A program made the translations under genes and the position numbers. DNA of 64,000 nucleotides from Roseburia intestinalis L1-82 (GTDB lineage Bacteria; Bacillota; Clostridia; Lachnospirales; Lachnospiraceae), in assembly GCF_900537995.1 (NCBI RefSeq), contig NZ_LR027880.1, positions 883,501 to 947,500 of the forward strand, in the 5' to 3' direction. The notes under the pieces were generated by a model that did no database searches, had not been told where the DNA came from, and saw only the letters and a program-made list of their open reading frames with translations. Of this stretch, positions 49,360-60,790 are shown piece after piece; the first letter of the stretch is position 1, and every line of letters starts with the position of its first letter.

Positions 49360-49451
49360 AAAACAAGGGAGGAAAATCCTCTGCTCGTCAGCAGATAAAT
49401 TTTACATTGTAAAATTGCATTTTCCTTCGGAAAACAAGGGAGGATTTAGAA
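49360..49451 (+). repeat. Leader repeat with duplicated Shine-Dalgarno segment
   Basis: AAAACAAGGGAGGA occurs at 49360-49373 and again at 49431-49444, the second acting as the ribosome-binding site for the ATG at 49452. The first continues AAATCCTCTGCTC. About 50 bases lie between, with hairpins CTGCT/AGCAG and TTTTAC/GTAAAA, ending GCATTTTCCTTCGG. The same design, with near-identical sequence, precedes the gene at 60251. Confidence 0.75.
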
Positions 49452-52355
49452 ATGTTAGCAATTAACATGGATGACGTGATCAACGTTCTCAATTCCTGTA
49501 AGCCATACATGATTGCTCTGGGTATTGCATTAGCACTCGCAATTATTGTAACTGTGGCATGCATGAAATTGAAGAAACCGGTAAAGAAACTGGTGAGAAA
49601 GGAAGCATGGATTGCATTCCTTATGGCAGCAGTTGTGATTATCAACCTGATCTGCTTTATTCCAATGTCAAGTATGATCTCACTTGCAATGGGAAATGGT
49701 ACGATCACAGAGGAAACCTCAAATGAGGCAACCGCACTTTGCGAGGATATTGCAGATGAAGGTATTGTTTTATTAAAAAATGAAGACAATATCCTGCCAC
49801 TTACAAATACACAGAATATCAACGTGTTTGGATGGGCATCCACCAATCCTTGTTATGGTGGTACCGGATCCGGAGCATTATCCGATGCATATGAGACAAC
49901 AACACTTCTCGGTGGTCTTGAGGATGCCGGATATAAGATCAATACAGAACTGACTGATTTTTACAAAGCATACCGTGAGGACAGACCGGAAGTTGGTATG
50001 TGGGCGCAGGACTGGACATTGCCGGAACCGACAGCAGATTCCTACAGCACTGAACTGATGAACAATGCAAAAGAGTTTTCTGACACAGCGATGGTAGTGA
50101 TTACCCGTGTTGGTGGTGAGGGAGCAGATCTTCCAACGGATGTGAGCAAGGTGACTTACACAGATAACTCTGAAAACTACAAAGATTTTGAAGCTGGTGA
50201 GCATTACTTACAGTTAAGCCAGACAGAAAAAGATATGTTAGACCTTGTTTGTGCCAACTTTGACAACGTTGTTGTCGTATACAACGGTGCAAACACCATG
50301 GAACTTGGATTTTTAAATGATTACAAACAGATCAAGGGTGCAATCTGGTGTCCTGGAACAGGTCAGTCCGGATTTGAGTCTCTTGGCGCAGTCGTAGCCG
50401 GTACGGTAAATCCATCCGGAAAAACCAGCGATACATTTGTATATGATCTGACAGCAACACCGACTTACAACAATTTTGGAAACTTCCTGTATGACAATAT
50501 GGATGAGTTTGCCGCTACATCCAAAAACTTCGGAACAGGCGAAGAAGAAGCAACAATTCCATCTTTTGTCAACTATGTAGAAGGCATTTATGTTGGCTAT
50601 CGTTTCTATGAGACAGCGGCAGTGGAAGGTCTGATCGACTATGATAAGACCGTTCAGTTTCCATTTGGATACGGACTTTCTTATACAGATTTTGAACAGA
50701 AGATGGGAGATGTTACCGTAGCAGACGGTAAAGTATCCTTTGACGTTACCGTAACAAACAATGGAACTGCCGCAGGAAAAGATGTGGTAGAGGTATATTA
50801 CAATCCGCCATATACAAACGGTGGAATTGAAAAAGCATCTGCAAATCTGATCGATTTTGCAAAAACAGATGTGTTACAGCCGGGTGAATCCCAGACAATC
50901 AATGTAAGTTTCTCAGAAGAAGATATGGCTTCCTATGATACATATGGGAATGGATGCTATGTATTAGAGGCTGGTGACTATGAGATTTCTATCAACTCTG
51001 ATTCACACAATACGATCGCATCACAGACCGTAAGTGTTGCAGATACCGTTGTATATGATGAGAATAATGCACGTTCTACCGATGATGTAGCTGCAACAAA
51101 TCAGTTTGCATATGCAGAAGGCGATGTAACATACCTTTCAAGAGCAGATGGATTTGCAAACTATGCAAAAGCAACAGCAGCTCCTTCAAACTTTACATTA
51201 GCAGAGGATGAGAAAGCTGAGTTCTTAAATAACAGCAATTATGATCCAAACAATTACAACAATGATTCGGACGAAATGCCGGCAACAGGCGCGAAAAATG
51301 GAATGACACTTGCTGATATGCGTGGTCTTTCCTATGATGATGAAAAATGGGATACACTTCTTGACCAGCTGACAGTTTCCGATATGGATACAATGATCGC
51401 TCTTGGCGGATATCAGACATCTGCAGCTGCAAGTGTTGGAAAAGTTATGACCGTTGACTGTGACGGACCTGCATCCATCAACAACAACTTTACAGGAACA
51501 GGCTCCATTGGATTCCCGTCCGCAGTTATGATCGCAAATACCTGGAACAAAGATCTTGCACTTTCTTTCGGTGAGAGCATTGGTAAGATGGCAGACGAGA
51601 TGGATGTTTCCGGATGGTATGCACCGGCAATGAACACACACAGAAATGCATTTGCAGGACGTAACTTTGAGTATTATTCAGAAGATGGTGTCCTTTCCGG
51701 AAAAATGGCCGCAAATGCAGTGATCGGTGCTGAAAAATATGGTGTTTACGCATATATCAAACATTTTGCTTTAAATGATCAGGAAACAAACCGTACCGGA
51801 ATGCTCTGTACATGGTCAAATGAGCAGGCAATTCGTGAAATTTACTTAAAACCTTTTGAAATCGCAGTAAAAGAAGGTGGAGCAAAGGCAGTCATGTCCT
51901 CCTTCAACTATATCGGTACACAGTGGGCAGGCGGAACCTACCCGTTACAGACAACCGTACTTCGTGATGAGTGGGGATTCCGTGGATTTGTATTAACCGA
52001 TTACTTTGGTGTTTACGGATACATGGATTCTGATATGGGTATCCGCGGTGGTACAGACTGTATGTTAGTTGCATACGATACGGAGACCAACCATGTGACA
52101 GATACCACAAGCGCAACAGGTGTAAAAGCAATGCGTCAGGCATCCAAAAATATCATGTATACCGTTGTAAACAGCCGTGCATATGATCCTGAAAACTTAA
52201 AGACAGGTCTGATGAACTGGCAGATCCTGGCAATCGTGATCGATATCATCCTTGGAGCACTGGTAATCTTCTTAGAGGTTCTTACGATCAGGAAATATAA
52301 AAAAGATGCAGCAGAAGAACCGGTGCAGACCGTAAATGAAACATCAGCAGAATAA
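49452..52355 (+). CDS. Membrane-anchored GH3 hydrolase with permuted domain order
   Basis: A 967-residue protein with two membrane helices at the N-terminus (ALGIALALAIIVTVACMKL; AFLMAAVVIINLICFIP) and one at the C-terminus (ILAIVIDIILGALVIFLEVL). Between them the GH3 domains come in swapped order: first the alpha/beta sandwich (EGIVLLKNEDNILPL, PGTGQSGFESLGAVVAG) and fibronectin part, then the barrel with CGRN-like AGRNFEYYSEDGVLSG, IKHFALNDQ and the nucleophile Asp in FVLTDYFG. Reversed GH3s are known from Ruminococcus and Butyrivibrio. It would act on beta-glucosides at the cell surface. GGGAGGA sits seven bases before the ATG, within a duplicated leader. Confidence 0.9.
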   Translation: MLAINMDDVINVLNSCKPYMIALGIALALAIIVTVACMKLKKPVKKLVRKEAWIAFLMAAVVIINLICFIPMSSMISLAMGNGTITEETSNEATALCEDIADEGIVLLKNEDNILPLTNTQNINVFGWASTNPCYGGTGSGALSDAYETTTLLGGLEDAGYKINTELTDFYKAYREDRPEVGMWAQDWTLPEPTADSYSTELMNNAKEFSDTAMVVITRVGGEGADLPTDVSKVTYTDNSENYKDFEAGEHYLQLSQTEKDMLDLVCANFDNVVVVYNGANTMELGFLNDYKQIKGAIWCPGTGQSGFESLGAVVAGTVNPSGKTSDTFVYDLTATPTYNNFGNFLYDNMDEFAATSKNFGTGEEEATIPSFVNYVEGIYVGYRFYETAAVEGLIDYDKTVQFPFGYGLSYTDFEQKMGDVTVADGKVSFDVTVTNNGTAAGKDVVEVYYNPPYTNGGIEKASANLIDFAKTDVLQPGESQTINVSFSEEDMASYDTYGNGCYVLEAGDYEISINSDSHNTIASQTVSVADTVVYDENNARSTDDVAATNQFAYAEGDVTYLSRADGFANYAKATAAPSNFTLAEDEKAEFLNNSNYDPNNYNNDSDEMPATGAKNGMTLADMRGLSYDDEKWDTLLDQLTVSDMDTMIALGGYQTSAAASVGKVMTVDCDGPASINNNFTGTGSIGFPSAVMIANTWNKDLALSFGESIGKMADEMDVSGWYAPAMNTHRNAFAGRNFEYYSEDGVLSGKMAANAVIGAEKYGVYAYIKHFALNDQETNRTGMLCTWSNEQAIREIYLKPFEIAVKEGGAKAVMSSFNYIGTQWAGGTYPLQTTVLRDEWGFRGFVLTDYFGVYGYMDSDMGIRGGTDCMLVAYDTETNHVTDTTSATGVKAMRQASKNIMYTVVNSRAYDPENLKTGLMNWQILAIVIDIILGALVIFLEVLTIRKYKKDAAEEPVQTVNETSAE

Positions 52356-52402
52356 AAACAGAACTTTGCAGAGATTACAATACATAGAGGTGAAAGCGTA
52401 CA

Positions 52403-52966
52403 ATGAGTAGTATAAAAAATCTATGGCAGAACTTTGCAGACAAACATCCCGGAGCCTCCAAATGGGTCCGGGAGGGCGGTCTGTTCGTGATCGTAAGTAA
52501 CCTGATCACGGTATTTAAATACCTGATGTTACTGTTTCTGCCGCTCGCATTTGCCGGACTTCCAAACATTGACTTTGGATTCCCGGGAATCGACATCACA
52601 TTATTTGGAGAAACATTCAAATGGAATATTATCGGTTATGATGCCGCACACGGTGGACTTCCATATTTTTGTGCATACATGGTTGCCATGGTGATTGGAG
52701 AATGCATCAATTTCCCGATCCAGAGAACTTTCGTGTTCCGCAGCAAAGGAAATATCTGGTATCAGGCATTCTGGTATCTGATCGCATTCTGCATCGTGAC
52801 CTGTATCGTAAACTCCATCAACTGTATCTGGGTAGCAGTAGCCGGTATGTTCGTGCCGGACTGGCTGTACAATATAGGAACGACCGTGTTAAACGGCGGA
52901 GTTTCAATGGTCGTATTTTTCTTTGTCAATAAGATCATTTTCCCGGAAGGGGAAGCGAAAGCGTAA
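52403..52966 (+). CDS. GtrA-family membrane protein
   Basis: A 187-residue protein with four hydrophobic segments (LITVFKYLMLLFLPLAF; YFCAYMVAMVIGECINFPIQ; FWYLIAFCIVTCIVNSI; LNGGVSMVVFFFVNKIIF) and the family motif FPIQRTFVFRSKG. GtrA proteins are thought to help flip lipid-linked sugars or decorate the surface. It lies 47 bases after the anchored GH3, probably in the same operon, and ends with a terminator at 53002. A weak AGAGGTGAAAG site precedes the ATG. Confidence 0.85.
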   Translation: MSSIKNLWQNFADKHPGASKWVREGGLFVIVSNLITVFKYLMLLFLPLAFAGLPNIDFGFPGIDITLFGETFKWNIIGYDAAHGGLPYFCAYMVAMVIGECINFPIQRTFVFRSKGNIWYQAFWYLIAFCIVTCIVNSINCIWVAVAGMFVPDWLYNIGTTVLNGGVSMVVFFFVNKIIFPEGEAKA

Positions 52967-53001
52967 AAAATAGTATGTGAAAAACGAAATAAGCACATAT
53001 A

Positions 53002-53048
53002 AAAAGCATGTTTTACGATTCAAAAGAATTGCAGAGCATGCTTTTTTT
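53002..53048 (+). terminator. Terminator after the GtrA gene
   Basis: AAAAGCATG pairs with CATGCTTTT around 26 bases and is followed by further T. Confidence 0.75.
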
Positions 53049-53080
53049 GTTGTATTTTAAATAGGAATAGGATTCACATA

Positions 53081-53137
53081 TTGACAAACAAAACAGAAAT
53101 GTTTATATTTATAACAGCGTTATATAACACTGTTATA
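53081..53137 (+). promoter_or_regulatory. TetR-type promoter with 28-base palindromic operator
   Basis: TTGACA (53081-53086) and TATATT (53104-53109) are 17 bases apart. Immediately after the -10, bases 53110-53137 form an inverted repeat with arms TATAACAGCGTTAT and ATAACACTGTTATA, symmetric except one base pair. The position predicts direct repression by the regulator encoded next. Confidence 0.8.
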
Positions 53138-53154
53138 AATGAGTGGAGGAACCA

Positions 53155-53775
53155 GTGACAAAACAAGTAGAAGGAGTTTCAGAAAAAATCATAGCCTGTG
53201 CGAAGGAAGAGTTCCTGCAAAAAGGATATTCCGACGCATCTCTGCGGACGATCGCCGAAAAGGCAGGAACAACGACCGGATCCATCTATTCGCGGTTTAA
53301 AGACAAGGAAGGATTATTTTCCGCGATTGTGGAACCGGCGGCGGATCATCTGGTGCAGATGTTTTTACATACGCAGGAGACATTTCACGGGCTTGAGGAA
53401 GAACAGCAGCCGAAAGAGATGAAGCATTATGTGTCATCCGGCATGGTGGAGATGATCGATTATATTTACGACAATTTTGAAGTGTTTGAGCTTTTGTTGG
53501 ATGCTTCCTACGGAACAAAGTTTCAGGATTTTGTGGAACGGCTTGTCGAGATCGAGACAGAATATACTTATAAGTATATGGACGTCATTCATTACCGGAC
53601 AGAAGATGGCGAGGTGATCACCGAGGATTTTATCCATATCATGACGAGGGCATTATTTGAGAGTATGTTTGAGGTGGTACGCCATAAAATGACGAAGGAG
53701 AAGGCACTCCGTTATATGGATATGCTTGAAAAATACCATTATGGAGGCTGGAATGCAATTCTGAAATGGGAGTAA
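53155..53775 (+). CDS. TetR-family repressor
   Basis: A 206-residue regulator with a typical N-terminal helix-turn-helix (ACAKEEFLQKGYSDASLRTI, GTTTGSIYSRFKDKEGLFSA) and an all-helical ligand domain. The start is taken as GTG 53155, since GGAGG at 53144-53148 precedes it; GTG 53143 would overlap that site. It sits just after its probable operator and 122 bases before two ABC exporter genes, so it most likely represses itself and the exporter until a toxic or signal compound binds. Confidence 0.92.
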   Translation: MTKQVEGVSEKIIACAKEEFLQKGYSDASLRTIAEKAGTTTGSIYSRFKDKEGLFSAIVEPAADHLVQMFLHTQETFHGLEEEQQPKEMKHYVSSGMVEMIDYIYDNFEVFELLLDASYGTKFQDFVERLVEIETEYTYKYMDVIHYRTEDGEVITEDFIHIMTRALFESMFEVVRHKMTKEKALRYMDMLEKYHYGGWNAILKWE

Positions 53776-53897
53776 GAGATGGGCTGTACATTTCTGGTAA
53801 CAGGATGACAGCCTTCTAAAAAAATCATTGGTTAGCGAAAACTAATTTCAAGTAGTGATGTATAACAAAAACTAAAAATGGAAAGGGAGTCTTTGAG

Positions 53898-55682
53898 ATG
53901 GAAAGTGATGCGAAGTTAAAAAAACAAAGTTCTTTGGCAAGGCTTTTTGAATATGCCGGGAATTATAAATATCTGACGATCCTCTCGTGGATATTTTCTG
54001 TGGTCAGTGCCTGGATTGCGCTGGTACCGTTTTATTATATCTGGAGAGTGATAAAGGAAATTTTAGATGTGGCGCCTCATTATGAAAATGCAGGGAATCT
54101 TGCAAATTATGGGTGGCATGCAGTCGGTTTTGCAATTCTATCCATGTTTCTTTACATTTGCGGACTGCTTTGTTCCCATTTGTCTGCGTTTCATGTGCAG
54201 GCAGGGATACGTTCACAGCTGATGCACCATATCATGACATTACCGATGGGATTTATGGACAGTGACGGAAGCGGTAAGATCCGTAAGATTGTCAACGAGT
54301 CGAGTGAAGCGACAGAGACCTATCTTGCACATCAGTTACCGGATCAGGCGGGCGCCATTGCAACGCCGGTCGGTCTTCTGGTTTTGCTCCTGATGTTTGA
54401 CTGGCGGCTTGGACTGCTAAGTCTGATCCCGGTAGTGGCAGCATTTTTAATTATGGGCAGCATGACCGGGCAGCGCATGAAAGATAAAATGACAGAGTAC
54501 CAGAATGCACTTGAAGAAATGTCGAGTGAGGCCGTGGAATATGTCCGCGGCATTCCGGTCGTAAAAACATTTGGACAGTCGGTATTTTCATTCAAGCGTT
54601 TTCGCGACTCGATAAAGAAATATGAAAAATGGACAATCGCTTACACAAAAGAATTAAGACTTCCGATGACCTTTTATACGACGATCATCAATGCGGCATT
54701 TGCTGTTCTGATCGCAGTTACTTTTTATGTGGTCAGAGGCGGGGAGAGCGACACGTTCTTATTAAATCTGATGTTCTATATTATCATCACTCCGATCATT
54801 ACAGTCACTTTAAATAAAATCATGTATGCAAGTGAAAACCAGATGATCGTTGAGGATGCGCTGACCAGGATCGACAGTATTTTAGAAAAGAAGCCGCTCA
54901 CAGAGGCAGCAGGAAAAGCGGATCCGAAAGATATGTCCATTACTTTTGAAAATGTGTCTTTCCGTTATGAGGATGCCGCAAAAGATGCATTACATAACAT
55001 CAATCTTAAGATCCGAGAGGGCGAACATGTCGCATTTGTCGGGCCGTCCGGTGGTGGAAAGTCGACACTTGCAAGCCTGATCGCACGTTTCTTTGATGCA
55101 ACAGAAGGGAAGATCAGGATCGGTGGCGTGGATGTGCGTGATATCCCGTCGAAACAGCTTATGGATATGGTGTCATTTGTATTTCAGGACAGTAAACTTT
55201 TGAAGATGTCTGTTTATGAAAATGTCCGCATGGGCAGGAAAGATGCGACGAGAGAGGAAGTTATGGAAGCATTAAAGAATGCACAGTGCGAAGATATTAT
55301 CGAAAAATTGCCGGATAGTATTGATACGGTGATCGGAGCAAAGGGAACTTATGTGTCCGGCGGTGAAGCACAGCGTCTTTCGATTGCGAGGGCAATGTTA
55401 AAAAATGCGCCAATCCTGATCTTAGATGAGGCGACCGCATTTGCTGATCCGGACAATGAGGCGAAGGTGCAGCAGGCATTTTCAAAATTATCCACAGGAA
55501 AAACGGTCATTATGATCGCACATCGTCTGTCCTCCGTTGTGGATGCCGACCGGATCTGCGTGTTAAAGGACGGAGAGATCGTGGAGTCAGGAACGCATAA
55601 AGAACTGTCAGAAGCACAGAAACTGTATGCTCATATGGGGGATGCATACAATAAATCGGTTCGTTGGAAAGTGGGGGAATAA
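53898..55682 (+). CDS. ABC exporter, first half-transporter
   Basis: A 594-residue half-transporter with six membrane helices in the first 320 residues and a C-terminal ATPase. Walker A is GPSGGGKST near residue 382, signature VSGGEAQRLSIARA near 485, Walker B ILILDEATAF with an unusual ADPDNEA D-loop. It pairs with the gene three bases downstream as a heterodimer. Because of the TetR gene upstream it is probably an inducible drug or peptide exporter. GAAAGGGAG precedes the ATG. Confidence 0.93.
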   Translation: MESDAKLKKQSSLARLFEYAGNYKYLTILSWIFSVVSAWIALVPFYYIWRVIKEILDVAPHYENAGNLANYGWHAVGFAILSMFLYICGLLCSHLSAFHVQAGIRSQLMHHIMTLPMGFMDSDGSGKIRKIVNESSEATETYLAHQLPDQAGAIATPVGLLVLLLMFDWRLGLLSLIPVVAAFLIMGSMTGQRMKDKMTEYQNALEEMSSEAVEYVRGIPVVKTFGQSVFSFKRFRDSIKKYEKWTIAYTKELRLPMTFYTTIINAAFAVLIAVTFYVVRGGESDTFLLNLMFYIIITPIITVTLNKIMYASENQMIVEDALTRIDSILEKKPLTEAAGKADPKDMSITFENVSFRYEDAAKDALHNINLKIREGEHVAFVGPSGGGKSTLASLIARFFDATEGKIRIGGVDVRDIPSKQLMDMVSFVFQDSKLLKMSVYENVRMGRKDATREEVMEALKNAQCEDIIEKLPDSIDTVIGAKGTYVSGGEAQRLSIARAMLKNAPILILDEATAFADPDNEAKVQQAFSKLSTGKTVIMIAHRLSSVVDADRICVLKDGEIVESGTHKELSEAQKLYAHMGDAYNKSVRWKVGE

Positions 55683-55685
55683 AAA

Positions 55686-57419
55686 ATGTCATTCAAAGAA
55701 AAAATACAGCATAAATATGCACTTTCAGAGCAGGGTGCGAAGGATATGATAAAAGCATTTGTTTCCGTCACGATATCGGATATTGTGCTGATGTTTCCGG
55801 TAGGAATGCTTTATTTTCTGGTAAAGGATTATATGGGAGGAACACTTGGTGGAAGAGGCGGGTTTTATCTTGCAGGCAGCCTGATCTGTCTGGCATTGAT
55901 CGCAATTACTACCTATATCCAGTATAATGCAACATTTTTTGCAACTTATGTGGAGAGTGGTGTCAGACGCATCACACTCGCGGAAAAACTGAGAAAAATA
56001 CCACTCTCGTTCTTTGGCAAAAAAGATCTGTCGGATCTGACCAGCACGATCATGGCGGACTGTGCGACGATGGAGACGGTTTCTTCCCATGTGATACCGG
56101 AACTGATCGGAGCATGTATTTCTACGGCACTCGTGGCATTAAGTCTCTTTTTCTTTGACTGGAGAATGGCTTTAGCGGCGCTGTGGGTGCTTCCGGTTTC
56201 ATTTCTGATCGTTGGCTGTTCCGGTAAAGTACAAAACAGTCTGAGCAGAAAACAGATGAAATTGAAAATGGACTGTGCCGACGGGATTCAGGAAGGACTT
56301 GAGACGGTCCGTGATCTCCGCGCCAACAATGCACAGGATGATTATATGAAAGGTCTGGATAAAAAAATTAAAGCGGTCGAGAAACATGCGATCGTGACAG
56401 AACTTGGCATGGCGGTATTTGTCGCAAGTGCCCAGATGATCTTAAAACTTGGTATTGCAACGGTTGCCCTGACAGGGGGAATCCTTCTTGCAAAGGGAAG
56501 TATCGATGTACTGACATTTTTCATGTTTTTGCTTGTTGTATCAAGAATCTATGATCCGATGCAGATTTCCCTGCAGAATTTAGCGGCAATGATCAGCGCA
56601 AATATACAGAGCGAACGTTTAGACGAGATCCTCTCCCATGAAATTCAGACAGGAACAGATCAGTTAAGCCATAAAGGATATGATATTACATTTTCAAATG
56701 TGAGATTTTCTTACGACAGAAAGGAGTCTGTATTAAAGGATGTAACATTTACTGCAAAACAGGGTGAGGTGACGGCACTGATCGGACCATCCGGCGGTGG
56801 AAAGACGACCGTATCAAGACTTGCGGCTAGATTCTGGGACATTGAAAAGGGAAAGATCACAGTTGGAGGCATGGACATTTCAAAGATCAATCCGGAAACT
56901 CTGATGTCACTGTATTCCATTGTATTTCAGGACGTCACACTTTTTAATAATACGATTATGGAAAATATCCGTATCGGCAGACAGGATGCGACGGATGAGG
57001 AAGTCATTGTCGCTGCCAAGTTAGCACACTGTGATGAATTTGCCCAAAAGCTGCCGGACGGCTGGCAGACGATGATTGGTGAAAACGGATCAGAACTCTC
57101 TGGCGGAGAACGTCAGAGAATCTCGATCGCAAGGGCGTTTTTAAAGGATGCACCGATTATCTTATTAGATGAGGCGACCGCATCACTGGATGTAGATAAT
57201 GAGACACTGATCCAGGAGGCATTGTCAAAACTGATCCGGAATAAGACAGTTCTTATCATTGCGCACCGGATGCGAACGGTTGCAAACGCAGATAAGATCG
57301 TTGTGTTAAAAGACGGTGTGGTTGCAGAGGAAGGCACACCTGATGAGCTGTCCGGAAAAGATGGAATCTATCACCATATGGTGGAGACACAGATGCAGGC
57401 GGCAGGCTGGGTACTGTAG
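55686..57419 (+). CDS. ABC exporter, second half-transporter
   Basis: A 577-residue half-transporter, partner of the gene at 53898. Six helices precede an ATPase with Walker A GPSGGGKTT near residue 367, signature LSGGERQRISIARAFLKD near 472, and Walker B IILLDEATASLDVDNE. Both signature sequences are near-consensus, so both ATP sites of the heterodimer may work. The tail ends VETQMQAAGWVL. It is followed by a strong bidirectional terminator. Confidence 0.93.
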   Translation: MSFKEKIQHKYALSEQGAKDMIKAFVSVTISDIVLMFPVGMLYFLVKDYMGGTLGGRGGFYLAGSLICLALIAITTYIQYNATFFATYVESGVRRITLAEKLRKIPLSFFGKKDLSDLTSTIMADCATMETVSSHVIPELIGACISTALVALSLFFFDWRMALAALWVLPVSFLIVGCSGKVQNSLSRKQMKLKMDCADGIQEGLETVRDLRANNAQDDYMKGLDKKIKAVEKHAIVTELGMAVFVASAQMILKLGIATVALTGGILLAKGSIDVLTFFMFLLVVSRIYDPMQISLQNLAAMISANIQSERLDEILSHEIQTGTDQLSHKGYDITFSNVRFSYDRKESVLKDVTFTAKQGEVTALIGPSGGGKTTVSRLAARFWDIEKGKITVGGMDISKINPETLMSLYSIVFQDVTLFNNTIMENIRIGRQDATDEEVIVAAKLAHCDEFAQKLPDGWQTMIGENGSELSGGERQRISIARAFLKDAPIILLDEATASLDVDNETLIQEALSKLIRNKTVLIIAHRMRTVANADKIVVLKDGVVAEEGTPDELSGKDGIYHHMVETQMQAAGWVL

Positions 57420-57427
57420 TTCATGAT

Positions 57428-57467
57428 AAAAATACCGCAAATGCGATTTTCACATTTGCGGTATTTT
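57428..57467. terminator. Bidirectional terminator between converging genes
   Basis: AAAAATACCGCAAATG pairs with CATTTGCGGTATTTT; serves the ABC operon and the minus-strand gene at 57481. Confidence 0.85.
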
Positions 57468-57480
57468 CAGGTTTCATCAC

Positions 57481-57996
57481 TTATTTTTTCTTTTTCTTAC
57501 TTTTCTCTTTTTCAAGTTCAGCTTTTTCTTTTTCGAGTTCTTTATTTGCGCGATTTGCTTTTTCTTTTAATTTGGTCCTCCAGCTCTTTTTACCTTCCGG
57601 TTTTTCAAGAGGTCCGCGTACACCGGTAACTTTTGTGATATAGATACCACTCACGGTAGCTTTCACTTCTTTTTTGACCGGTATGTAATCAAATACAGAT
57701 TCATCGGCGATCAAAGACATTACTTTTGGTCCAACCTTTGCTTTTACGATTGGAAGTTTGGTACGGCGCATCATCTTCGGTGTCTGGTCGATCACAACCT
57801 GCGGAAGACCGGATTCGGTAATGCGCATTCGCTTCTTATCTATGATCAGCATGGATACGGTCTGTGCGGCAGCGGCAAGCTGTTCATCCTGTTCGGCTTT
57901 CTTTTTCTGTGCTTTCTTCCCGAGAAAATAAAGGACAACAAGTCCGATGATTAAGACGGCTAAGATAACCAGTAATACGATAGTAACTGGGCTCAT
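57481..57996 (-). CDS. Membrane-anchored basic protein, unknown function
   Basis: A 171-residue protein with one N-terminal membrane helix (TIVLLVILAVLIIGLVVLYF), a Lys-rich turn GKKAQKKKAEQDEQ, a predicted beta-rich middle (VSMLIIDKKRMRITESGLP; PIVKAKVGPKVMSLIAD; ATVSGIYITKVTG), and a highly charged Lys/Glu helix to the end (NKELEKEKAELEKEKSKKKK). The arrangement suggests a cytoplasmic domain tethered to the membrane. GGAGG precedes the ATG, and a promoter lies at 58043-58071. I do not recognise a functional family. Confidence 0.75.
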   Translation of the reverse strand: MSPVTIVLLVILAVLIIGLVVLYFLGKKAQKKKAEQDEQLAAAAQTVSMLIIDKKRMRITESGLPQVVIDQTPKMMRRTKLPIVKAKVGPKVMSLIADESVFDYIPVKKEVKATVSGIYITKVTGVRGPLEKPEGKKSWRTKLKEKANRANKELEKEKAELEKEKSKKKKK

Positions 57997-58042
57997 AAAT
58001 AATCCTCCATATATTTACTTTTTAGAACAAAACTCAAAAAAT

Positions 58043-58071
58043 ATTGTAGCATTGATTTTTGGAAAAAGCAA
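58043..58071 (-). promoter_or_regulatory. Promoter of the membrane-anchored protein gene
   Basis: On the minus strand, TTGCTT (58071-58066) and TACAAT (58048-58043) are 17 bases apart, with an extended TGC before the -10. Confidence 0.6.
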
Positions 58072-58372
58072 GGTGTGTGTATGTTATATCTGTTTTTATA
58101 CACTGGATTTTTTGTGCAAAACTTACAAATATCATTGGAATATCGGCTTTTTAATGACATTATAAGAACAGTATGCTAAAATCCAGACAAAGCATGATAT
58201 TCTGAAATCATCTACATGGTTATAGACCATTCTTTTATCATAGTGAAAAATGTATAAAAAGTTATACATTCAACTTAAGAATTTCCAATGCTTTTATCAT
58301 TCACACATATAAGCAGGGAGAATTCTTGAAAACCACGAATTGCTCCCGGATTAAACAAAGGAGGAGAAATGA
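58072..58372. other. AT-rich gene-free gap with small hairpins
   Basis: No coding frame is visible. TGTATA/TATACA pair at about 58250-58267. GGGAGAATT pairs with AATTGCTCCC (one bulge) just before the Rpn gene. The final part (TTGCTCCCGGATTAAACAAA, then GGAGGAG) faintly resembles the leader repeat at 49360 and 60085. Confidence 0.4.
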
Positions 58373-59329
58373 ATGGGGACGGTTGATATTGTAACAAAAG
58401 AGTATATGCGGGAGAATGCTATATTTGCAGATGCGTTTAATTATCTTATCTATGGTGGAAAAAAGGTGATCGATCCGGCAGGACTTACAGAGATTGACAC
58501 TGCTACATCGGCAGTGGGTAAAAAAGATGCACTGCAAAAATACCGTGATGTTTTAAAAGCAGCAGTCATCAAACAGGATGAAAAGATGTCGTATGTTTTA
58601 TTAGGGGTTGAGAATCAGACAGATGTCCATTATGCAATGCCGGTCAGAAACGCTATCTATGATGCCTTACAATATGGAAAACAAGTGTCAGATATAGCGG
58701 CAGGGCACCGACGGAGCCAAAAAGATTATTCAGGAAAAACCGGTGGAGAATATTTATCGGGATTTTTAAAGGAAGATCACATTAAACCAGTTATCACACT
58801 TGTGATTCATTTTGGGGCAGAGGAATGGGACGGACCGTTATCTTTACATGAAATGATGCCGATAAGGGATATGGAAATTTTAAGTTATGTGGAGAACTAC
58901 AGGATACACCTGATCGATCCGGCAAAACTTACGGAAGAAGAACTGAACAAATTTTCAACAAGTATGAGAGAGGTTATGGGATATATCAAGTACTCTAATA
59001 ATAAAGAAAAACTGCTGGATTTTTTGAGGACAGATACCCATAAAAGTATAGAAATGAATGCAGCCAGAGTTATAAAAACCATCACGAAGACACCAATTAA
59101 GATATCAGAGGAAAAGGAGGGGATAGAGATGTGTCAGGCGATTGAAGAATTAATTGCGGAGAGCGAAGCGCGTGGAGAAGTTCGTGGCAAAGCAGAGGGA
59201 ATGATAGAAATGTGTCTCGAAATGAACATACCGAAAAAGGGTATTATAAAAAGATTGCAGGATAAATTAAACATATCTATGCAGCAGGCGGATGAGTATT
59301 TTAGAATGTATGGAACAAAAAATGATTAA
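58373..59329 (+). CDS. Rpn-type PD-(D/E)XK nuclease family protein
   Basis: A 318-residue protein of the recombination-promoting nuclease/putative transposase family. The opening RENAIFADAFNYLIYGGKKV, the core LLGVENQTDVHYAMPVRNAIYDALQYGKQV (catalytic-type Glu and Gln region) and the tail EARGEVRGKAEGMIEMCLEM are typical of this group in Lachnospiraceae. Rpn proteins cut DNA and are mobile or phage-defence related in some bacteria. GGAGGAG precedes the ATG. It stands alone. No inverted repeats clearly bound it. The specific role is unknown. Confidence 0.8.
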   Translation: MGTVDIVTKEYMRENAIFADAFNYLIYGGKKVIDPAGLTEIDTATSAVGKKDALQKYRDVLKAAVIKQDEKMSYVLLGVENQTDVHYAMPVRNAIYDALQYGKQVSDIAAGHRRSQKDYSGKTGGEYLSGFLKEDHIKPVITLVIHFGAEEWDGPLSLHEMMPIRDMEILSYVENYRIHLIDPAKLTEEELNKFSTSMREVMGYIKYSNNKEKLLDFLRTDTHKSIEMNAARVIKTITKTPIKISEEKEGIEMCQAIEELIAESEARGEVRGKAEGMIEMCLEMNIPKKGIIKRLQDKLNISMQQADEYFRMYGTKND

Positions 59330-59355
59330 GAGATTATATATCTGAAAAACATAAA

Positions 59356-59403
59356 ACGGGCAGGCAGGAGTTTTCGTATATGAACTCCCACCTGCCTGTT
59401 TTT
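59356..59403. terminator. Bidirectional terminator between Rpn and flavin reductase genes
   Basis: GGCAGGCAGGAGTT pairs with AACTCCCACCTGCC with a small bulge, flanked by T on the plus strand and by A on the other side. Confidence 0.8.
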
Positions 59404-59404
59404 C

Positions 59405-59914
59405 TTATCTTGCCAGAATATCAATGATCTCCGCAATATACATCGTGTGCATATCATGATCTGCATACCATTTTTGCGCAATCTCTGGCATCAGGAAGGA
59501 ATCCTCAGTCAGTCGCGTTGCGGACATTTTCTCACACAGCAGGATCATATTTCCCTCATCGATGAACGGAATGCTGTGGCGGGAGGTAAGGGTTAAACCG
59601 GCGGCTGAGATCTTATCGTTTTCGTCGCGGCCGGAGTGACTTCCACAGTAATTTAATGCATCACGGTATTTTTCAGATAAAAAGCTGAGAGAAAAGAATT
59701 CATTTTTGTCGATCAGTTCTTTGGTGTATCTTGAGTCACGGACAAATACAAAGGCAACGTTTTTGCCCCATAAGATGCCGACACCGCCCCAGCTTATGGT
59801 CATGGTGTTTGCTTTGTCTTTGGAACCTGCGGTGAGCAGCGCCCATTCTTTTCCAATCTTTGTAAATGGATCAAATTCCATCATATCTGCTGTCATAGGT
59901 TGAAATGTATGCAT
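59405..59914 (-). CDS. Flavin reductase-like FMN-binding protein
   Basis: A 169-residue flavoprotein of the flavin-reductase-like fold. ALLTAGSKDKANTMTISWGG and VFVRDSRYTKELIDKNEFFS line the expected FMN site, and FLSEKYRDALNYCGSHSGRD follows. Such proteins reduce flavins or small substrates with NAD(P)H. AAGGAGAT precedes the ATG. It is alone on the minus strand; no substrate hint is given by the neighbours. Confidence 0.85.
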   Translation of the reverse strand: MHTFQPMTADMMEFDPFTKIGKEWALLTAGSKDKANTMTISWGGVGILWGKNVAFVFVRDSRYTKELIDKNEFFSLSFLSEKYRDALNYCGSHSGRDENDKISAAGLTLTSRHSIPFIDEGNMILLCEKMSATRLTEDSFLMPEIAQKWYADHDMHTMYIAEIIDILAR

Positions 59915-60038
59915 AACGTAATCTCCTTATATTTATACGAAATATTTATATGTTGGTTTTATTATAAAATTCCCTGGTTTAAATGACAAGAGAAAATTGC
60001 GGTTGTTTGCGGGGGCAGAGTGAGCCGTGTACGGAAAA

Positions 60039-60067
60039 TTGACTTTTCATAAGTGTTGTACTATGAT
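60039..60067 (+). promoter_or_regulatory. Promoter of the ECF S-component gene
   Basis: TTGACT (60039-60044) and TATGAT (60062-60067) are 17 bases apart. The resulting leader is about 175 bases and contains three Shine-Dalgarno copies. Confidence 0.65.
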
Positions 60068-60084
60068 GGTTGCGAAAATTGTAC

Positions 60085-60250
60085 AAAACAAAGGAGGAAA
60101 ATCCTGCCCAATGTGTTGGGCATTGCTCCTGCAAGGGCACATGCTATGCAAAGGCGGCATAGCAGGCATTTTGCTCCGCAAAACAAAGGAGGAAAATCCT
60201 CTGCTCCTGCAAAGGCAGTCGCATTTTGCTCCGCAAAACAAGGAGGATTT
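60085..60250 (+). repeat. Leader repeat with triplicated Shine-Dalgarno segment
   Basis: AAAACAAAGGAGGAAAATCC occurs at 60085 and again at 60180; a third copy, AAAACAAGGAGGATTT at 60235, is the working ribosome site for ATG 60251. Between copies lie a 74-base spacer (with TGCTATGC/GCATAGCA) and a 34-base spacer, both ending GCATTTTGCTCCGC. The first two copies also contain the mirror AGGA-AAA-TCCT. The same unit occurs at 49360. Confidence 0.8.
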
Positions 60251-60790
60251 ATGAAAATCACAACGAAACAAATCACAACAACAGCAGTGTTACTGGCAAT
60301 CTGTATCGTGAGCCAGTTCTTTAAAAACACAAGTGTGTACATCACAGGACCGATCATCAATGCATGTCTGATCATTGCGGCACTGGGTGCAGGAATGGCA
60401 TGCGGAATTATTTTATCTGTGATCACACCGGTCACATCATTCCTGATTACAGGAAGCCCGATCATGTCAGCGATCCCGGCAATCATCCCATGCGTTATGA
60501 TCGGAAATATCATTCTTGTAGTTGCAGTTAGTCTGATTGCAAAGAAAATCAAAGGCAATGCAGGTCTGATCGCAGGTATGGCAGCCGGCAGCATTGTAAA
60601 GGCATTATTTATGGGAGTCGTGATTGCACTGGTTCTGATTCCGTCCCTGCTTCCGGAGGCAATGGTTCCAAAGATGGCAGTGTTCCAGACAACATTTTCC
60701 GTGACACAGCTTATCACAGCAGTAATCGGAAGTGTGCTGGCATTTATTATCTGGATTCCTTTAAAAAAGGTAATTGCAGAGCAGAACTAA
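60251..60790 (+). CDS. ECF transporter S component
   Basis: A 179-residue membrane protein with about six helices (TTTAVLLAICIVSQFF; IINACLIIAALGAGMACGII; PVTSFLITGSPIMSAIP; NIILVVAVSLIAKKI) and Ala/Gly-rich packing, typical of substrate-binding S components of energy-coupling factor vitamin importers. The ATPases and T subunit would be encoded elsewhere. The start is fixed by GGAGG at 60242-60246. The substrate is unknown. The leader is unusual, with repeated ribosome-site segments. Confidence 0.85.
   Translation: MKITTKQITTTAVLLAICIVSQFFKNTSVYITGPIINACLIIAALGAGMACGIILSVITPVTSFLITGSPIMSAIPAIIPCVMIGNIILVVAVSLIAKKIKGNAGLIAGMAAGSIVKALFMGVVIALVLIPSLLPEAMVPKMAVFQTTFSVTQLITAVIGSVLAFIIWIPLKKVIAEQN

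Follow-up and report, generated by a model that had tools for sequence, protein, structure and literature searches.

The stretch of DNA analysed here, referred to as the window, comprises 64,000 bases of Roseburia intestinalis L1-82 (bases 883501-947500 of the one-contig host genome of 4,493,348 bases). It contains two genes, one for a GH3-type protein and one for the S component of an ECF transporter, whose leaders both carry a short folded core between copies of the Shine-Dalgarno (SD) sequence.

Repeated Shine-Dalgarno sequences in two leaders

Re-reading the coordinates of the SD copies bore out the layout that a first-pass annotation had described for both leaders, including the three copies before the ECF S gene (Table 1). 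By eye, the GH3 copy differs from the second ECF copy at one position in about 27 bases, and the identity within the ECF leader extends over 21 bases. The word AAAACAARGGAGGA has 10 matches in the window at up to two mismatches, versus 2.0 +/- 1.3 after shuffling (0 of 100 shuffles reach 10), and its four exact matches all lie inside the GH3 and ECF leaders. For GGAGGAAAATCCT, five matches were found at the same tolerance, a number reached by 6 of 100 shuffles, and the three exact ones again all fall inside these leaders. An Rfam scan of the window gave no match at the gathering threshold; at lax thresholds the best hit to the ECF leader scored 13.9 bits where 181.5 are needed, on the opposite strand, and none was credible. 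A promoter-like site stands just upstream of the ECF array, which would place the array in the 5' leader (two consensus matches were found versus 0.6 expected in shuffles).

Table 1. Features of the GH3 and ECF S leaders, in window coordinates
Feature	Position	Strand	Remarks
GH3 leader, left SD copy	49360..49373	+	AAAACAAGGGAGGA
GH3 hairpin P0	49369..49381	+	GAGGA (left SD) paired with TCCTC (core anti-SD)
GH3 unit, core	49374..49435	+	AAATCCTC...GGAAAAC; unit period 71
GH3 central hairpin	49381..49394	+	CTGCTCGTCAGCAG
GH3 optional extra hairpin module	49398..49416	+	AATTTTACATTGTAAAATT; similar module in loci L010 and L024
GH3 hairpin P3	49420..49434	+	TTTTCC-TTC-GGAAAA, adjoins functional SD; X-X' pair covaries
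GH3 leader, second AAAACAAGGGAGGA copy	49431..49444	+	ATG at 49452
GH3 functional SD	49436..49444	+	AAGGGAGGA; GGG variant as in left copy
GH3-type protein gene	49452..52355	+	Pfam PF01915, PF00933, PF14310
Promoter-like site	60039..60067	+	TTGACT-17-TATGAT; consensus match only
ECF leader, left SD copy	60085..60098	+	AAAACAAAGGAGGA
ECF unit 1, core	60099..60184	+	unit period 95
ECF unit 1, extra hairpin	60105..60122	+	
ECF unit 1, extra hairpin	60141..60164	+	
ECF unit 1, hairpin P3	60169..60183	+	
ECF leader, internal SD copy	60185..60193	+	AAAGGAGGA; within AAAACAAAGGAGGA copy 60180-60193
ECF unit 2, core	60194..60239	+	unit period 54; covariance-model match 94 bits
ECF unit 2, P0 arm	60197..60201	+	TCCTC
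ECF unit 2, central hairpin	60207..60218	+	CTGCAAAGGCAG
ECF unit 2, hairpin P3	60224..60238	+	
ECF functional SD	60240..60247	+	AAGGAGGA; within AAAACAAGGAGGA at 60235-60247
ECF transporter S component gene	60251..60790	+	Pfam PF12822; ATG at 60251

The anatomy of the unit was derived from 137 parsed non-redundant arrays, 32 of the host and the others from loci of other genomes; some are orthologues, and the rows are therefore not independent. Between two SD copies, in a single orientation, stands a core of about 44 nucleotides (nt) or more, AAATCCTC-(hairpin)-GCATTTTXCTYCGX'AAAAC, in which AAATCCTC is followed by a small, highly variable hairpin, GCATTTT, the hairpin TTTTXC-TYC-GX'AAAA and a C that adjoins the SD. 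Additional hairpins are seen at two positions in the core; at one orthologous site, a single such module makes the difference between a unit of 70 nt in one species and one of 52 in the other. Length peaks lie at 52-54 and about 70-73 nt, the longest unit having 108; the element is a folded DNA/RNA of about 45-100 bases. One unit is present in 98 arrays, two in 31, three in 7 and five in 1.

The helices of the element are kept by compensatory changes. Across 99 distinct units from 100 loci, 98.1% of the pairs in P0, P2 and P3 are standard and six pairs change on both sides; the covariation score of 0.151 compares with 0.034 after shuffling (0 of 500 as high) and at most 0.020 in slid controls, in an alignment fitted to the model, which favours structure. 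The X-X' pair of P3 is G-C in 82, C-G in 53, T-A in 18 and A-T in 1 of 155 parsed units, with a single mismatch. Three bases were compared in 110 arrays: the one following the left GGAGG, its pairing partner in the anti-SD and the one following the right GGAGG. They read A/T/A in 104, C/T/A in 5 and T/A/T in 1. Joint changes of SD and anti-SD are few (L066 and L328); at L328, GAGGC faces GCCTC and a C also follows the right GGAGG. At two loci of genus g9 (L066 and L317) a T follows GGAGG and the anti-SD reads ACC..., by which pairing with the changed SD is restored.

Dispersal, placement and downstream genes

The GH3 and ECF leaders are the tip of a dispersed family. In the host genome, a pattern search found 26 places at up to three mismatches versus 5 with the pattern reversed. 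A covariance model trained on 22 host units, which consequently match by construction, gave 59 matches at E<=1 and 52 at E<=1e-3 (the GH3 unit scores 70.8 bits at G000:C1:932861-932946). These 52 form 36 arrays, or 38 with the addition of two weaker ones (E 0.10 and 0.12). The motif first noticed at two loci extends well beyond them, also into other genera. Not all host matches are intact: a few, at 1230974, 3899793 and 4033362, are degraded or consist of a right-end fragment. The second of these (L188, G000:C1:3899793-3899870), a right-end fragment, abuts the upstream coding sequence, seemingly forms its C-terminus and supplies the SD of the next gene.

Beyond the host, the distribution is patchy. 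Strict filters were used, and no more than 43 candidates were scored in any genome. At E<=0.01 the element is present in 26 of the 116 genomes searched, the host among them, with 1 to 42 matches each; 22 genus-mates have it and about 40 have no match, and several of the single matches are weak. A family sample at E<=1e-4 yielded 17 of 299 Lachnospiraceae genomes, the host included, from 17 genera (16 besides that of the host). The exact pattern occurs in 94 stretches of named genomes, whose record titles read Lachnospiraceae, Roseburia, Eisenbergiella, Lachnospira, 'Bacterium C-53', metagenome-assembled genomes (MAGs) labelled Eubacterium, and one Ruminiclostridium. Two Lachnospira eligens megaplasmid records, which may be one strain, hold three element places each, one place in each being viewed. 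Viral contigs gave no exact match to the pattern. Two unverified faecal 'Bacteriophage sp.' scaffolds (L314, MT836425.1; L315, MT839578.1), possibly bacterial DNA, each have units before a reading frame.

The arrays lie at translation starts. All but one of the 36 host arrays are sense-oriented directly before an open frame of at least 62 codons, the exception being at 3059827, where the next frame has 17 codons. After removal of four arrays that run on or are cut and one with the right end GGGGAGG, 132 of the 137 were scored: a start codon (ATG, GTG or TTG) follows GGAGG at 3-12 nt in 131, and at least 60 open codons follow 126, versus 636 of 5000 random places. Among the six without 60 codons, L091, L123 and L147 are truncated where the available sequence ends and L121, L157 and L181 are real misses. 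The unit pattern and the model include the right-hand SD, so that its presence is partly by construction, which does not hold for the start codon. The final SD copy reads GGAGGA in 130 of 132 arrays and GGAGGT in 2; upstream copies read GGAGGA in 152 of 186, and mostly GGAGTA, GGAGGC or GGAGAA otherwise. The well-spaced SD and the open frame behind it suggest that the gene is left functional, as had been supposed. AGGAGGA itself occurs 14 times in the window, counting both strands, with 5 occurrences at a plausible start, so that starts are favoured more strongly by the element than by the word it targets, although selection against other places would equally give this pattern.

The genes that follow are not paralogous. 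Twenty-two of those behind the 36 host arrays were chosen, and Pfam assigned each to a named family, the families being unrelated: GH3, ECF S, MATE, FabA-like, P-II, NlpA lipoprotein, nucleotidyl transferase, FlxA, MFS, glycosyl transferase family 3 (probably trpD), ThiS, leucyl-tRNA synthetase, NusA, cysteinyl-tRNA synthetase, PadR, P5C reductase (proC), beta-lactamase-fold hydrolase, chorismate mutase with shikimate kinase, TerD, LysR, ATP synthase c and transport permease. No shared pathway is visible among the 22, which speaks against a metabolite riboswitch. In the GH3 protein itself the Pfam order is reversed, with the C-terminal domain at 105-383, an Fn3-like domain at 444-518 and the N-terminal domain at 686-859, and its N-terminus is hydrophobic by eye.

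Orthologous sites and predicted effect on translation

Orthologous sites differ in both the presence and the number of units. Joined-flank queries for 22 loci were run over 62 genomes, and nine sites, picked because a match pointed to an empty place, were aligned. A unit-free counterpart that aligns on both flanks exists for seven (L255, L261/L258, L260, L156, L059, L062 and L065). The counterpart of L060 is unit-free with a poorly aligned left flank, and in that of L254 a degraded stretch and the right end are still present. Outside the nine, the hisF locus (L063) has many full-length joined-flank matches at about 75-80%. The ECF S protein is found at E<=1e-20 in 16 of the 62 genus genomes including the host, and the 250-330 nt ahead of the match are free of units in all 15 others. 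As for number, two MAGs with near-identical flanks (left 99/100, downstream 151/152) have five units (labelled Lapin) versus one, array lengths being as assembled. Before a MATE gene, the host (L182, G000:C1:329900-332900) has two units versus one on a Lachnospira eligens megaplasmid (L312, NC_012780.1). The first 400 nt are identical at 387 of 400 positions and the upstream part at 134 of 139 (96-97%), which points to recent transfer of the gene with its leader between genera.

Does the insertion duplicate the SD? At L260 the filled site reads TTTATTTAAGGGAGGA, core, AGGGAGGAT versus TTTATTTAAGGGAGGATTC in the empty one; the native non-consensus SD flanks both sides, where the commonest right end, AAGGAGGA, would be expected instead of AGGGAGGAT. 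More generally, 84 of 132 arrays have the same two bases ahead of GGAGG on both sides of the core versus 66.2 +/- 3.2 after shuffling (0 of 20000 as high), and where the right prefix is other than AA, 14 of 31 arrays agree versus 2.7 shuffled. Depending on flank length or N, 130 arrays entered a strict test, in which left flanks with an older right end or AAAAC were removed, and 127 were folded. In this strict subset 7 of 19 agree versus 1.6 (p 0.0002); restricted to single units, the figure is 5 of 16 versus 1.3 (p 0.004).

In the 127 arrays folded in context, GGAGG has a mean unpaired probability of 0.15 in the left and 0.21 in the final SD, the final one being the more accessible in 75. With shuffled cores the values are 0.32 and 0.35, and for joined flanks without a unit, a shorter RNA, 0.51. 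The core is thus predicted to hide both SDs; folding of the leaders, which the first-pass annotation had called for, computes a reduced SD accessibility in its presence. An effect of the element on translation is plausible on these models, and either a translational brake relieved by some signal or a tolerated burden would suit the folding.

Origin of the element and relation to known repeats

We think it probable that the units represent an insertion-derived modular hairpin element, a kind of miniature mobile repeat that strongly favours SD sequences. The many unrelated loci and the empty and copy-variant orthologues support the earlier suggestion of a small element at the ribosome-binding site that is mobile, regulatory or both. 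A copy would enter an SD, possibly helped by TCCTC in its 5' part, which can pair with the adjoining SD, and the SD would then stand on both sides of the core. Because the right SD keeps its spacing to the start codon, the insertion would be tolerated, and the right end, by restoring the target, would open the site to additional copies. The left SD could be locked in P0 and may be freer to decay, and SD-SD recombination or slippage may add or remove units. In the transcript, the two anti-SD stretches (UCCUC and CUYC) should lower SD accessibility and act as a translational brake, the strength of which may vary with unit number.

Several observations weigh against this reading. At 12 of the 19 strict loci with a non-AA right prefix, the right side differs from the left. 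AAAAC precedes the left SD in 41 of 117 flanks versus 16 of 382 other SDs, and some of these 16 look like element remnants; in the left flanks AAAAC may stem from earlier units, a wider target or a terminal repeat longer than assumed. At L156 the right SD, not the left, resembles the empty site. Weighed together with L260 and the prefix agreement, these points leave SD duplication on insertion likely, yet not uniform. In addition, a C after the left GGAGG with unchanged anti-SD breaks the P0 pair in 5 of 110 arrays. At some orthologous genes units are retained in two or more genomes, and in several of these cases the left flanks can be aligned (L106/L128, L112/L158, L159/L172 and L100/L161), so that units can also persist long. 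The ends (AAATCCTC... and ...GAAAAC), compared by eye, form no terminal inverted repeats, and a fuzzy search for unpaired left or right ends in the examined loci gave only truncated or divergent units, none with a partner end within 4 kb, and no autonomous copy. Finally, the regulatory half of the proposal derives from folding.

What moves the element? An enzyme and plain SD-to-SD recombination would both be compatible with an insertion-derived repeat. Ectopic recombination or template switching between SDs without a transposase, by which donor arrays would pass a core with its SD through 8-13 nt of shared SD, is a serious contender, though we would not put it as high as an even chance. The SD repeats that bound the units and the differences in unit number (5 versus 1, 2 versus 1) agree with it, and it accounts easily for tandem change, whereas an enzyme better explains one conserved core; recombination alone leaves the presence of this folded core in many genera unexplained, and 8 nt is short for homologous recombination. 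Genome content bears on both. In the 62 genus genomes, 22 of which have a Y1 match, element count, scored on no more than 43 candidates each, correlates weakly with Y1 count (rho 0.30, p 0.018; Fisher p 0.068, table 9/7 versus 13/33) and with RVT_1 count (rho 0.33, p 0.008; Fisher p 0.048), which speaks against recombination unaided. One genome (G053, 94% complete), however, has 10 element matches with no Y1 or RVT_1 gene found, and another (G016), with 15 RVT_1 matches, has none to the element. Neither Y1 nor a reverse transcriptase appears to be an obligatory partner, since element-rich genomes without either exist.

That the unit is purely a regulatory RNA, a leader responsive to a ligand, protein or small RNA, selected gene by gene and dispersed by regulon recruitment, appears unlikely. 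Such a leader would fit the compensatory covariation in P0, P2 and P3, the few loci where SD and anti-SD bases change together (T/A at L066, GAGGC/GCCTC at L328), the predicted SD sequestration, the constant orientation, and the several genes, P-II and proC among them, that carry the element in more than one genome. It fits poorly with 22 named downstream genes lacking a common theme, with orthologous leaders that lack the unit, with copy numbers that vary between near-identical loci, and with the empty Rfam result for the window.

Still less probable is mobilisation by a Y1 HUH transposase of the IS200/IS605 or RAYT type, for which the unit would be a non-autonomous substrate, its TCCTC the guide and the SD the target. 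The left end of IS200/IS605 elements has a guide, and the layout of flanking SD, AAA, TCCTC and hairpin resembles it; strand-specific placement and the weak rank correlation with Y1 would also be in keeping. However, the loci of the five Y1 matches in the host are without element ends, and two genomes that are about 69% complete (G059 and G021, with 37 and 11 element matches) have no Y1 match, as was the case for G053. Moreover, the IS200/IS605 family is not known to make target duplications, whereas SD variants are common to both sides of the insert here. Four of the host Y1 transposase genes (L209-L212) match the family only to positions 77 to 88 of 121, which suggests decayed or interrupted copies. 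The idea that the repeated ACARGGA motifs form a titrating or repressing leader of CsrA-type sites is very hard to sustain, since ACAAGGA resembles the CsrA consensus but the motif is an ordinary SD too, and its GGA sits in the P0 stem and not in a loop.

Going further, the insertion-derived repeat might tentatively be seen as a mobile class that targets the SD through its own anti-SD (TCCTC), rebuilds the ribosome-binding site, spreads via essential genes and leaves translational switches graded by unit number; we regard this as possible, short of probable. If true, the translation start would be a safe haven for a mobile repeat, as the interrupted part is brought back by the insertion, and the element could precede essential-looking genes such as those for leucyl- and cysteinyl-tRNA synthetase, NusA and ATP synthase c. 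It could then drive fast and reversible evolution of expression levels in abundant gut bacteria. Near-identical loci with different unit numbers offer natural sets for relating leader structure to translation, and the element is a ready screen for mobilising activity.

Among titles and abstracts of the open-licence PMC literature, no description of an SD-flanked hairpin element was found. Like miniature inverted-repeat transposable elements, the present element is short, non-autonomous, folded and flanked, here probably and in part, by a duplicated target; it differs from them in having no terminal inverted repeats, in being strongly targeted in one orientation, and in that no partner insertion sequence was found in the examined loci. 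REP/RAYT and IS200/IS605-derived repeats are hairpins beside a short fixed target, with possible guide-target pairing; here the target is the SD, which stands on both sides, and no end-matched Y1 gene was found in the examined loci. Riboswitches and thermosensors that sequester the SD contain anti-SD stretches with alternative pairing to it, whereas the present element has no common downstream function and no Rfam hit at gathering score, and is present or absent at orthologues.

Nearest in kind is pneumococcal BOX, which like RUP and SPRITE belongs to the small, dispersed, folded, non-coding repeats of Streptococcus pneumoniae, proposed to be parasitic and sometimes found in leaders (PMC3049150). 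BOX is modular (boxA-boxB-boxC, with a variable number of boxB), and in this respect, as in folding and in its proposed parasitic nature, it parallels the present element. BOX and RUP have terminal inverted repeats, unlike the element described here, and the part of that source available to us describes neither a seat on the SD nor its duplication for any of the three (PMC3049150). The TAACTGA direct repeats of Beggiatoaceae are, according to the portion consulted of their description, bare heptamers in tandem with little SD character and no folded core between duplicated SDs. They share with the present units a patchy occurrence in arrays directly 5' of the start codons of unrelated genes, and a translational role has been proposed for them (PMC4679880).

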